A stretch of DNA of 64,000 nt from Ptychodera flava. Taxonomy: Eukaryota > Hemichordata > Enteropneusta > Ptychoderidae. The translations under genes were made by a program, and so were the position numbers. Location of the stretch: the NCBI RefSeq assembly GCF_041260155.1, contig NC_091948.1, positions 5,754,501 through 5,818,500 of the forward strand. Reading direction: 5' to 3'. Positions 1,163 through 61,013 of the stretch are shown here, one piece after another; position 1 is the stretch's first letter, and every line of letters starts with the position of its first letter. The notes under the pieces were generated by a model that worked only from the letters and a program-made list of their open reading frames with translations, was not told the DNA's origin and did not search any database.

Positions 1163-4100
1163 GGGAAAACTGAGCGATTACCTGACCCATTCACTGACTG
1201 TGTCCCCGCAAATACATCTAAATATCAGACTGCTTTTAGAAGTTCATACTCCGTACAGGTAAGAAAACCACATCCACGTTTACTCTAGCTACTGACTTTA
1301 CCAAGCACTTAGCTACAATGTAAATCCAGGTACATCAATCAATCAATCTTTTGATTGCTCTGATGGGCTGCAAATGTTTGATTGCAAGTTTCTCCGTACT
1401 TGATTTAATGGCAACAAATATTTTACCTTCATTTTCAAAGATTACTTTGGTGCCCCTTTGAACTGACTCATTATCCACTTACGAACATCATAAAATATTT
1501 CGGAAACTGTCAAACGTGAAATATAGACAAACCAAACTATAATGAGGCGAGACAAAATTTAAATGGTGACAATCAGTGTTTGGAAAGATCCGACATCTAA
1601 ACTGAATGTGTAATGAATCAACGAGTTTAAAATTGGAATTTGTCACTCAATATACGAAAATAGTTTTGCACAGAAATAAACGGTTTTATCCGATGCCAAT
1701 GTTCAGAATGGGCAGAAGGCGAAGAGTGGGTAATTTGAACATTACATTTTTACTGTGTCCTATGCAAAGATATGCCAAATATTACTGTCAGCAAGTTTCA
1801 TCAAAGAAGCAAAGTTTCTGATAATCAAACGCTATAGCCACAGAAATCGCATGCGCTATCCGCTACGCTTGAACAGAGAGATGTGCAGATGTTCTGAATG
1901 GCAAAGCTGTAATAAATGGTGAACAATGTCTGAAACGTCGTGATGGAGAAGCTATACAATGATTGGTAAAATGTCTCTGTGGAATTTATATAATGTGGAT
2001 GTTTATGTCATTTAACATCTACTTACCCGTGCATTATCATATATTGCAGGCGTGTATGAAGAGTTGTCTGCTAACCTACATCGCCGATACGTGTAACTGT
2101 ACCGACCCTCGATATCCTCGGCCAGATGGTTATGATGATTTTAGACACTGTCAATATCAAATTTTTGAACACCGTACGTATATTTTGTGCATTTTTGTCA
2201 TATTTCTGGTTGATATATTCATTTTCATCATCACATTGAACAAATTGCCTGAATAGTGTCTTTATGATTTAAAACTCTAAAAGCCGCACAAATATCTCAG
2301 AAAAAAGCTGTTGTATTTGAAATTCTCTTGATCAGATACGAGCGGATAAAAAAGCCTTACTATAATGTTAGTTCTATATACAAAGTTTTGTGGCATGGAT
2401 AACGTCAGGAGACACCTCTCTCCGCTGTTGATGCTTAATAAACTATTCCCATTCTAAACATACTGTCTCCACAGGAATGTGCAAGTCAACGGCAGATTTG
2501 ATGTACCAAGCAGATAGACTGACATGTGATTGCCCTCCGAAATGTGTGTAAGTTCCTCCATACTTAATTGAAGGATTACAAATATTTGACCTTCGTTTCT
2601 AAAAATAGAAGTATAGTATTTGTCTTGCGAATAAAAGTAAAGGTTTACTTCCAACTTTACGTTTGCGGACCTTGACAAAAACTAAAGCATCGTTAGCTAT
2701 CGAAGAAAATGTTCAGAAAAATGTGCTATGTTTGAACATAGAAAGAACAATCTAAAGTGACGACAATGCAGCGACGGTAATGATAAAAAAGAGCCATAGT
2801 AATGTGGTACAGTGCCTTGTGGCTTCCTTTCTTTTTATTATTGATGAAGTCTCTCGCACATACGGGGATTCGCATGTGCCGACGGCGCAACCTGAAGCTG
2901 GGAAAGCACAAGGGACTGTCCTCATCCGCTGCGCCCTCAACGTCATTAAAATGCAAAACCCTATTGTAACTAACGCAGAAGAAATGATTAACAGGTGAAG
3001 CGGGTCGTATGTCGGCCATTCACGGCTAGAAACAGTGCAACAACGCAACATGGCGGCGGCAATGGAGCTTGACTACAGCAAAACCTTGGAGGAACTCGGA
3101 CATTCGCGCTGTAAAGACTTTCATAGACAAGTTATTGACGGTTATGCTGCCTCTGCCTCCGCCCTGTTCTCGACGTCATATTTCATGAATAATTAATAGC
3201 GAGCCAAGTCCTGAAAATGAGGACAGTCCTCGTGCCTGTAGCATTCCCAGCTCGTGCCTTCAGCGCTATGCTTGCAAATGTCCCCATACATCAATATTAC
3301 ACAGAACAGGCACGAGGGACTGTCGACAGTCTGAGTCATAGTATCATTGAAAATTTTGCGTTGAATTGATTATGCAGATATCGGCCTTTATCTTACCGCA
3401 CAAGTTTCTCTGTTACTCGGTTACTTTGAGGCAGTATGCACCTCAAATTGAAAGATGTAAAATATTGATGAAACTTTCTGCAAGGGAAATTTCCTTTCAA
3501 AATGTCATAAAAAACAGGGGTAACCACATAAACGTTTGTTGAGGTGATTTAAATCAAATAAAGTCACCGATAAATTAAATTAAATTTCAATTTCAGTTTT
3601 TAATGTTTGATTTTACTGGCCACCGTCCTACATTAAATTTTCGATTCTCGTGACCTTCAAATATGCCTCCTCAAGCGGCAGACCAGAAAAGATTGAGAGA
3701 AATTCTAACTAAAATAGTTGCCCCCGTGGTGCATTCTCCATCGATCTGCCAGAAACTACATACCTCTCCCTGGTTGTCCCGCATAGAGCCTCTAATTACA
3801 ATTCTTTACTTGCTCTTCGGGCTTTACCTCTATTCTCAATTTACATCTCATCCAATTTGTATGTCAGTTTGTATATTCTACTATCCGCATTTGCCAATCT
3901 CTCTACCTATGTCTGTATCCGCTTGTCTCTGTTCATTATAGGTGACAGTGTCATTTTGCCACCGATTGCCTATTTTTGGCCACATTTGTCACGGCCATCA
4001 GCTTTGAATCTCTTCAAATATTTCTAAGACTGATCGCTGATTGCTGATTTTTACACGCAGAACCGATACACATGCAAGGGAAGTCTCGTCAACATTATGG

Positions 4101-5635
4101 CCTTCAATGAATTCTGTGGTAAGCAACAGTTTGCACATTCACATGATTGCAGCAACAGAGTATAGGGATAGCGTGAAATAGTTTTGTTATATGGGTATTT
4201 CTTTTTTTCTACCATCCTCAATAAGAAAACTTTCACCTTTACTTTTAAATAACAAAATTAGTTTTTGTTCTGCAGTTAAACGCTTAGCACCGGAATGATG
4301 TAGTTGCCATGGTCACATGTTTTTTGTCTCCAAATTAAAACTCGCACTCAAAATTCAAATGCCTCTGTCCATCACTGAAAAACACAATCAATCAAAATAT
4401 TTCAATGGTTGAATACTAATTAAGTGTTTCTTGCGTGCTCCTTACTTAAATAGGACTATGTCTATGATGTAATGAAAGGTCGAAGTTCAAAGTTGCGGAT
4501 GCTATTAGAAGAGCAAGAACGAACTGGGCTAGATCTGTTCGGGTAACTACATGCGATTTATAATGGATGCCATTAAAAAGCCCTACTCAATATCTATTGA
4601 ATAGTATAAGGTGGCAATAGTTATGCTTGATTGTCAAAAGCAACTCGAACATAAGTTACTGACAATTGAAATATCACCAGTCAATCTGTTGTCTTCCACA
4701 ATTCATTTATGAAATCTTCAAAAATATGCACAGCTGTCAAAATAAATCGACCTGTTTGCCTTATGAGGTATTTGCCAATTCCACTTTGAGATCCTTCACA
4801 TACATTTCAAATCTAATCTCATGATTAACATGACAGTGTCCGTTTTCACCATTTCTACCCAGGAAGAATGTTTTGAAATTGGAGGTGTATCTGCGCGACC
4901 TAGCCCGTCAAGAAATCACCCAATCACAGTCATACACGGTAATAGTATCAATAGTAACAGATAACAATACCTGAAAACGAGAGGGTTTTTTTCAAAGCTG
5001 ATCGTAATTTATCAGATTTAGGCTTCTTTTTGGCTATGCCAGGTAAATTCGGTTTGCTGAAATCGTTTTCAAATTGTAAAATTAGGATTTTAATTTTCCA
5101 AGTTAAGACATTCAGGGGAAAGAATTCTTACTGGTTTAGGACTAACAAATTTCGCTAAAATTTGCTATGATGAGGTTTTCATGAAGTATATGTCTGCAAT
5201 ACCTTACATCAGTTTGGAAGTTAAAAAATACATGTTGACCTCTACCATGGAATATGTAATATTATAGCAGTGGATCAGCCATCATCTGCCTATTATACTT
5301 TGTTTCAGGAAATTGATTTAGTTAGCGACATTGGTGGAAACCTTGGGCTGTGGATCGGTCTGTCTGTCCTGACAATAATGGAATTTCTGGAGCTCATTTT
5401 CGACATGTTCGCAACCTTGAGGTTTGTACGGCATTCAAGAGGTAATCACCCACCACATGTTGAACGGGAGGTGACTTACAGGCACGATGACAGACTACTT
5501 TACCCTAATGGACATCATGATCTCATCTATACCGATGGTGATATCTTTTACACACAGTCAGACTATGACAGACATGGCGAACGTACTAATGGTGGAGTGT
5601 ACTACATGCAGAGAAATATATATCTACCTAAATAG
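1163..5635 (+). CDS. DEG/ENaC sodium channel gene A (5' partial, exons 5-11)
   Basis: Seven exons in one frame, numbered by gene C: 1163-1258, 2050-2173, 2475-2547, 4061-4118, 4454-4542, 4863-4938 and 5309-5635 (TAG). All introns are GT-AG. The 280 residues cover the second half of the extracellular domain ([14 protein letters not shown] and CDCPPKC cysteine motifs), the WPS stretch before the palm, then TM2 with GLWIGLS. GLS is the G-x-S selectivity filter of the family. The tail ends MQRNIYLPK. No exon is broken. Exons 1-4 were not found in the 1162 bases to the left, so they should lie off-window. Family function is an amiloride-sensitive Na+ channel subunit of the plasma membrane; the gating stimulus cannot be read from sequence. 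A candidate AATAAA lies at about 5764. Family assignment is firm, exon ends nearly so. Confidence 0.9.
2548..4060. other. Intron 7 of gene A with a small inverted repeat
   Basis: At 1.5 kb this is more than twice the length of intron 7 in gene C (654 bases). It holds a more GC-rich insert. A segment at about 2895-2927 (AGCTGGGAAAGC then GGGACTGTCCTCAT) reappears inverted at about 3216-3251, and a third partial match (GGCACGAGGGACTGTC) lies near 3309. This suggests a decayed inverted-repeat transposon of about 350-420 bp. No coding sequence is evident. Confidence 0.4.
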
Positions 5636-60470: not shown

Positions 60471-60563
60471 TACCTAGGGAGTCTTTCCGCCAATTACAGC
60501 CGACAAAACACACGACACAAACGCTACAATCACCATTGCCCCTACAGATATACTCGAGGAAAC
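60471..60563 (+). promoter_or_regulatory. Conserved upstream / 5' UTR block of gene E
   Basis: TACCTAGGGAGTCTTTCC, then CAATTACAGCC, ACAAAACACACGAC and ATCACCATTGCCCC, then a CAG and the ATG. It is closest to the gene C block (TACCTAGGGAGTCTTACC). Confidence 0.6.
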
Positions 60564-61013
60564 ATGGAGTCTCGACATAATAGACGTCTTGATGAGGGCG
60601 GAGCAACTAAGGACAAGTATAGAGTATTACTTTCTGATGTCATAGCTAACTCATCTGTCCACGGTTTGCCAAATATTCGGAGAGCTAAAAGTGTGCCGAA
60701 ACGAGTATTTTGGTTAGTTTCCTTTCTCACTGCTGTCGGGACGTTTATCGGATTGAGTTCTAATTTAGTCGAGAAATACTTTGATTACGGTGTTGCCGTA
60801 GGCCTGCAGGTCGACGTCGAACGGGACTTGACTTTTCCCGCCGTTACAATCTGCAATATGAACCCCCTGCGAAAGTCGTTACTGAACGAGGACCAATTGT
60901 CGCACCTGCGTTCCATAGTTGCAGGCGCCGAGGGAGAGAATGAAGCCAACAAACCCGTCAAAACAACTGATGAAACTCCATCGAATGACACCAGAAGAAA
61001 TTCAAGTGACCAG
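60564..61013 (+). CDS. DEG/ENaC sodium channel gene E, exon 1 (3' partial)
   Basis: 150 codons from ATG to a CAG|GTAAGA donor at codon phase 0, as in C and D. It shows [18 protein letters not shown] with the HG gating pair, TM1 (FWLVSFLTAVGTFIGLSS), FPAVTICNMNPLRKSLL and a variable acidic segment ending with glycosylation sites NDT and NSS. Exons 2-11 were not found before the window end. Intron 1 in the paralogues is 5.4-8 kb, so they are expected off-window. Intact as far as visible. Confidence 0.9.

Follow-up and report, generated by a model that had tools for sequence, protein, structure and literature searches.

Is a run of similar channel genes on one chromosome a true tandem array, when did it arise, and what might its channels respond to? 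These questions are raised by a 64,000-nucleotide stretch of the Ptychodera flava genome (NCBI RefSeq assembly GCF_041260155.1, contig NC_091948.1, positions 5,754,501 to 5,818,500 of the forward strand; "the window" here means this whole stretch). P. flava is an enteropneust hemichordate, and the genes in question encode subunits of the DEG/ENaC family. Such a subunit has two membrane helices and a large cysteine-rich ectodomain, and the channels are trimeric sodium channels of the amiloride type. We read the locus as a tandem array of DEG/ENaC subunit genes that is specific to this lineage, with a probability of about 0.85 that covers both the array and the identity of its genes. As gene expansions go, it is real but fairly ordinary.

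The window likely comes from the published chromosome-level assembly of P. flava, which is described as 23 scaffolds (PMC11175523). The main text of that paper, in the parts available, does not mention tandem, ion channel or sodium channel, and no DEG/ENaC array in P. flava is described in the titles or abstract openings among the literature matches listed. The trees of three papers include P. flava sequences, and some of the array genes may be among them. What the present analysis adds is a complete model for one gene (B), a frameshift in another (C), the finding that the public models of B are split, a sister protein in Glandiceps and a series of negative controls.

Four head-to-tail DEG/ENaC genes

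An earlier note on this DNA had described four plus-strand DEG/ENaC paralogues and at least one relic, in an array running off both edges of the window. In a six-frame self-comparison, mutually similar short open reading frames (ORFs) recur in the same order on the plus strand. When the whole window was searched on both strands with eight DEG/ENaC protein queries (tblastn, E up to 0.1), there were 201 matches, none of them on the minus strand. These merge into 31 intervals, all of which lie inside four genes, A to D, or the relic. The weakest locus by its best match is the relic (3.6e-17) and the weakest single exon scores 7.6e-6; in a shuffle control, the best E for the B query was 0.11 over 20 triplet-shuffled windows.

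Exon edges were set by hand on alignments of the paralogues, and every internal junction of the resulting gene models has AG/GT. The window holds exons 5 to 11 of A (cut), the whole of B, all 11 exons of C and exon 1 of D (cut), arranged head to tail on one 11-exon plan with a spacing of 15 to 28 kb. Exon lengths are equal for exons 3 to 10 in B and C and for exons 5 to 10 in A, B and C. The features are as follows, with the database proteins (P numbers) that match them.

1163..1258, + strand, gene A exon 5; 100% identical to P0001 residues 303-334; gene cut at left edge
2050..2173, + strand, gene A exon 6; gene model, P0001 match
2475..2547, + strand, gene A exon 7; gene model, P0001 match
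4061..4118, + strand, gene A exon 8; gene model, P0001 match
4454..4542, + strand, gene A exon 9; gene model, P0001 match
4863..4938, + strand, gene A exon 10; gene model, P0001 match
5309..5635, + strand, gene A exon 11 with stop (second transmembrane helix, TM2, and C-terminal tail); gene model, P0001 match
12558..12774, + strand, relic, a decayed exon-1 fragment with broken frame; tblastn best E 3.6e-17 and nucleotide comparison
22183..22623, + strand, gene B exon 1 (N-terminus, HG motif and first transmembrane helix, TM1); gene model, P0003 match
27985..28178, + strand, gene B exon 2; gene model, P0003 match
29102..29205, + strand, gene B exon 3; gene model, P0003 match
29705..29868, + strand, gene B exon 4; gene model; P0003 continues into the next intron
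30182..30277, + strand, gene B exon 5; gene model; in neither public B model
31190..31313, + strand, gene B exon 6; gene model; in neither public B model
31647..31719, + strand, gene B exon 7; gene model; P0218 starts at an internal Met
32374..32431, + strand, gene B exon 8; gene model, P0218 match
32817..32905, + strand, gene B exon 9; gene model, P0218 match
33486..33561, + strand, gene B exon 10; gene model, P0218 match
33696..34046, + strand, gene B exon 11 with stop; gene model, P0218 match
37502..37945, + strand, gene C exon 1; gene model; absent from P0004
45994..46186, + strand, gene C exon 2, 193 nt (B: 194), with in-frame TAG at 46099-46101; gene model
47127..47230, + strand, gene C exon 3; gene model, P0004 match
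47531..47694, + strand, gene C exon 4; gene model, P0004 match
48207..48302, + strand, gene C exon 5; gene model, P0004 match
48881..49004, + strand, gene C exon 6; gene model, P0004 match
49318..49390, + strand, gene C exon 7; gene model, P0004 match
50316..50373, + strand, gene C exon 8; gene model, P0004 match
50532..50620, + strand, gene C exon 9; gene model, P0004 match
50922..50997, + strand, gene C exon 10; gene model, P0004 match
51393..51731, + strand, gene C exon 11 with stop; gene model, P0004 match
60564..61013, + strand, gene D exon 1; 100% identical to P0002 residues 1-150; gene cut at right edge

Among 5.8 billion proteins searched, those of P. flava are 100% identical to the exons of the window wherever their models cover them: P0001 is A (582 amino acids, aa), P0002 is D (590 aa), P0003 is the start of B, P0218 its 3' half, and P0004 is C. 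All five, together with a further protein, P0009, map to one 37.26-Mb (37,263,076-base) contig. The models of both end genes extend past the edges of the window. On the left, residues 303 to 582 of P0001 lie inside, and the first 1,138 bases of the window contain no match to residues 1 to 301 of A; on the right, residues 1 to 150 of P0002 lie inside and the remainder outside.

Membership of the superfamily follows from the Pfam family PF00858 (gathering cut-off 23.6 bits), which is matched by gene B with E 3.7e-97 (326.7 bits), by the A piece with 4.9e-36 (125.2 bits) and by the D piece with 8.1e-23 (81.6 bits), and which is also precomputed on P0004. An HG motif precedes TM1 in A, B, D and exon 1 of C, and a G-L-S filter precedes TM2 in all four copies, as is characteristic of the superfamily.

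The inventory of the earlier note, four plus-strand paralogues with a relic, is thus upheld by tblastn, Pfam and the exon plan. Its end points are exact, with A exon 5 beginning at 1163 and D exon 1 ending at 61013, and it was right that both end genes are cut. The set of copies needed correction, in that B alone is present in full with an uninterrupted frame, C having a frameshift and a stop in exon 2. That the array is larger is shown as far as the two cut genes; the contig also carries one or more other members of the clade, among them P0009, which may adjoin the array.

The copies form one clade

We built two trees: a quick one of 62 rows, hand-picked from 219 retrieved proteins plus the reconstructed B, and a careful one of 40 rows, obtained by removing 22 rows (long branches, near-duplicates and some others). 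The FaNaC rows were all from molluscs, and BASIC, HyNaC and annelid FaNaC rows were not included. In the 40-row tree, A to D form a clade (100/99), A to D with P0009 form another (100/99), and the Glandiceps protein P0005 is sister to the latter (100/100). The 62-row tree gives 99 for the clade with P0009, 100 for the Glandiceps sister and 94 for A to D alone. The copies therefore make up one clade and do not scatter among DEG/ENaC clades, scattering being an outcome that the earlier note had named as refuting its reading. Because A and B are sisters in the 40-row tree (98/97), these chromosome neighbors are also nearest kin. C and D are not sisters in the best tree; that pairing is not rejected in the approximately unbiased (AU) test (p 0.408), and all AU tests given here were chosen after the tree had been seen.

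With neighbors that form one clade and share an exon plan, the locus is a tandem array made by local duplication. From what is established for DEG/ENaC genes, unequal crossing-over would have copied whole genes.

In both trees the nearest relatives are ambulacrarian proteins whose function is not known: Glandiceps P0005, P. flava P0014, the crinoid proteins P0007 and P0012 and the sea cucumber protein P0202. The P0014 group joins the array clade at 79/82. Several uncharacterized ambulacrarian DEG/ENaC groups also appear in a published tree, as seen in the accessible portion of that paper (PMC10507113). Among the best 120 of 166 database matches, we found at least one P0005-type protein for Glandiceps versus at least five for P. 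flava, and no close relative from Saccoglossus. On this distribution, the expansion probably took place in the Ptychodera line after its split from Glandiceps, a conclusion that gene loss, annotation gaps or relatives among the other 46 matches would weaken.

Age and integrity of the copies

Protein identity among the copies is only 55 to 63%. Pairwise Nei-Gojobori estimates of dN/dS (the ratio of nonsynonymous to synonymous change) range overall from 0.19 to 0.38, with dS of 0.8 to 1.5, which is close to saturation. The ratio for B and C over 11 exons is 0.19; over exons 5 to 11 it is 0.26 for A-C, 0.23 for A-B and 0.20 for B-C, and for exon 1 alone it is 0.38 for C-D, 0.26 for B-D and 0.24 for B-C. 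The duplications are old, and the copies are under purifying selection.

Gene B is open throughout its 11 exons and encodes 589 aa. In the public models, P0003 (332 aa) tracks B to exon 4 and then runs into intron 4, and P0218 (207 aa), which was found with the 3' half of B as query, takes a Met within exon 7 as its start. Measured against how exons are laid out in A, C and D, the two appear to be one gene. Gene C has a 1-nt frameshift in exon 2, and the frame from exon 1 reaches the TAG at 46099-46101; P0004 (416 aa) takes its first Met from the shifted frame and omits exon 1, which leaves a modelled protein without TM1. Since the dN/dS of C is not raised and its AG/GT splice sites are intact, the frameshift is recent, allelic or an error, and on these comparisons gene C seems to bear no clear sign of long decay, with the exon-1 value for C-D (0.38) speaking against this. 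The published P. flava assembly was polished with Illumina reads (PMC11175523), but the shift may still be an error or a single allele. Between 12553 and 12725, the relic resembles the first exons of B, C and D, with 74 to 78% nucleotide identity over 140 to 175 nt; small gaps break its reading frame, and tblastn of the whole window detected no further exon near it. The P0009 model has 346 aa and begins mid-ectodomain. For cloning, two of the four public model sets are unsafe: B is split and lacks exons 5 and 6, and C is without exon 1 and TM1.

Two other explanations of the locus bear on these data. That A to D are not distinct loci but haplotigs or artefacts of the assembly is hardly credible. 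It could be suspected because the published assembly, assumed here to be the source of the window, needed phasing with Purge Haplotigs, as stated in the part of the paper available (PMC11175523), but the divergence of the copies in protein identity and dS refutes it in practice. Nor are there long stretches common to the gene units: shared repeats of at least 60 nt come down to exons, simple or tandem repeats and a small number of dispersed ones. A family in decay, in which the relic, P0009 and C are dead and channels are made by just some of the copies, deserves more weight, though we consider it unlikely. It would account for the frameshift and stop in C, the relic without other exons, the mid-ectodomain start of P0009 (though this model is labelled isoform X2), the split public models of B and the position of exon 1 of C versus D as the highest pairwise dN/dS. 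However, the ratios involving C elsewhere (B-C 0.19, A-C 0.26) are not above other comparisons (A-B 0.23), AG/GT is kept at its splice sites, the frame of B is uninterrupted, and the database models that match A and D are full-length.

Channel type and gating

Within the superfamily, vertebrate ENaC (SCNN1A/B/G) is closest by overall similarity. Like the array it belongs to PF00858, and it provides the best solved-structure match, namely ENaC alpha for A (E 6e-59) and ENaC gamma for D (1.8e-63) and for B. The ENaC model TIGR00859 is also the best-scoring NCBIfam model for the copies scanned, which were A, D and partial C, not B.

Several observations weigh against our interpretation and in particular against an ENaC identity. 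TIGR00859 scores 346 bits for P0001 (A), 348.7 for P0002 (D) and 281.8 for P0004 (C, partial), all below its cut-off of 428, and the degenerin model TIGR00867 gives 292 for A and 311 for D, below its cut-off of 598. The C-terminal PPxY typical of ENaC is found in none of A, B, C and D and, overall, in none of seven proteins checked. The strict furin pattern R-x-[KR]-R does not occur in the ectodomains of A, B, D and C (the P0004 part), a looser RxxR being present at A 355 and B 123. The G-L-S filter is a further difference from vertebrate ENaC. Some copies may make no channel, as the models of C and P0009 are without the first half. Finally, the deep tree is weak: the array stands apart from ENaC in the best tree, although a joint grouping with two ENaC rows is not rejected (p-AU 0.118), and ENaC falls beside ASIC (92/92). 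Because this grouping contradicts the published split of the superfamily into DEG/ENaC clade A and clade B (PMC10507113, accessible part), we do not use the deep branches.

Given the sub-cut-off scores and the lack of PPxY and of the strict furin pattern, it is overall similarity only that speaks for ENaC-like gating. We tentatively favor a sodium leak or modulated conductance of this kind over proton gating and would place it in epithelial or sensory cells. Gating by a peptide is a weaker candidate, and mechanical gating would come slightly behind it.

Two more specific proposals concern the stimulus. Proton-gated channels of the ASIC type are suggested by the database name of A, "acid-sensing ion channel 2-like", and by PDB matches to ASIC1 and ASIC2 near 1e-50. 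ASIC and the array also share the family, the HG motif before TM1 and the GxS filter frame. With chicken ASIC1 as reference, however, H73 is replaced by V in all three testable copies (A, B and D) and K211 by F in all four, both residues being called critical in ASIC (PMC10507113, accessible part). The filter reads G-L-S, not G-A-S, and a clade with ASIC is borderline (p-AU 0.045), which together make proton gating very improbable. A relation to the FaNaC channels of molluscs and annelids, with the finger of each copy tuned to a different neuropeptide, is less remote but still doubtful. With B as query, FaNaC ranks among the better PDB matches (1.2e-55), and the 3' half of B is named "FMRFamide-activated amiloride-sensitive sodium channel-like". 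Seven FaNaC potency determinants are named in PMC9234716, in the part available, and of these the core residues R288, G316 and R324 are kept in all four window copies. We rejected these residues as evidence of peptide gating, since they are present in most of the 62 family rows (52, 54 and 56, respectively) and hence not diagnostic. The remaining determinants do not complete the set: F or Y at 231 occurs in 10 of 62 rows (7 named FaNaC or FaNaC-like and 3 unnamed that group with them) and is G in all four array copies, R529 is K in all four, I281 is L, L, V and L across the four copies, and S447 is T, T, A and S. A joint clade with FaNaC is rejected (p-AU 0.009), and the two are separate in both trees.

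In the FaNaC1 structure, as reported in the accessible part of PMC11026163, the peptide site lies in the finger, and the link between binding and gating is probably made by conserved core residues. The front of the finger is indeed the most divergent ectodomain stretch of the array, 29% identical among A, B and D versus 50 to 68% elsewhere outside the tail, with region limits that we set ourselves and that are rough. The resulting finger-to-rest identity ratio of 0.54 is matched by mollusc FaNaC (0.55), the hemichordate P0013 set (0.50), urchin (0.49) and starfish (0.43), the exception being ASIC4 (0.85), in which the finger is short and gappy; whether the genes in these sets lie in arrays was not checked. 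With four of five comparison sets alike, we discarded finger divergence as evidence of ligand diversification. This removes the main support for the suggestion in the earlier note that the expansion reflects diversification of a ligand-gated channel. Among the determinants tested (ASIC proton and FaNaC residues), the array has none that is specific to a known DEG/ENaC subfamily. As a deuterostome relative without the hallmarks of ASIC and FaNaC, it offers a channel type in which to ask about the ancestral stimulus.

A shared C-terminal tail

The cytoplasmic tails have diverged strongly, with 22% identity among A, B and D. Two motifs are kept in the tails of all four copies: GD[VI][YF]Y[TS] in the last 120 residues and IYLP in the last 60. 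Among the 219 retrieved proteins, both occur only in P0001, P0002, P0004 and P0218 (A, D, C and B), a difference from the ambulacrarian relatives without known function. P0009 has a similar VYYMQ stretch.

ENaC alpha, beta and gamma subunits mix. Each intact copy of the array would supply one subunit to a trimeric sodium channel of the amiloride type, in which products of different copies may combine in the same way. A bolder proposal, to which we give little credence, is that the array encodes hemichordate-specific co-assembling subunits gated by an extracellular signal, with a conserved Tyr-rich C-terminal tail (GDVYYT ... R-x-IYLPN) that ties them to the cell interior. If true, expression of different copies would set channel properties cell by cell.

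Other observations

Three retrieved vertebrate proteins stood out. Sturgeon P0025 and frog P0031, both named ENaC gamma-like, do not group with the two mammalian ENaC rows, and their filter reads G-F-S; they may represent an unrecognized vertebrate DEG/ENaC group. Carp P0059, named ASIC1, is without the histidine that follows TM1 in the chicken protein ASIC1.

As for other genes, none of 10 ORFs scanned, out of 62 in the window of at least 90 aa, reached a curated Pfam cut-off, and the window contains no tRNA and no Rfam match at gathering scores. Repeats are present at several places. At 8045-9833, two arms of 145 nt lie 1.5 kb apart and are 94% complementary. One comes from a 42-bp minisatellite (8064-8303) and the other from its inverted 44/22-bp counterpart (9480-9809), and the pair is perhaps a mobile element with tandem-repeat ends. 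Two 38-bp tandem arrays (13814-14073 and 14544-14648) lie close together about 1 kb past the relic, and a 226-bp satellite of 6.8 copies (39990-41526) is found within intron 1 of gene C. Dispersed repeats, some of them inverted, flank gene C or lie inside it (36534-36679, 53916-54061 and 55409-55505; 42292-42651 and 55008-55366) and are possible substrates for rearrangement.

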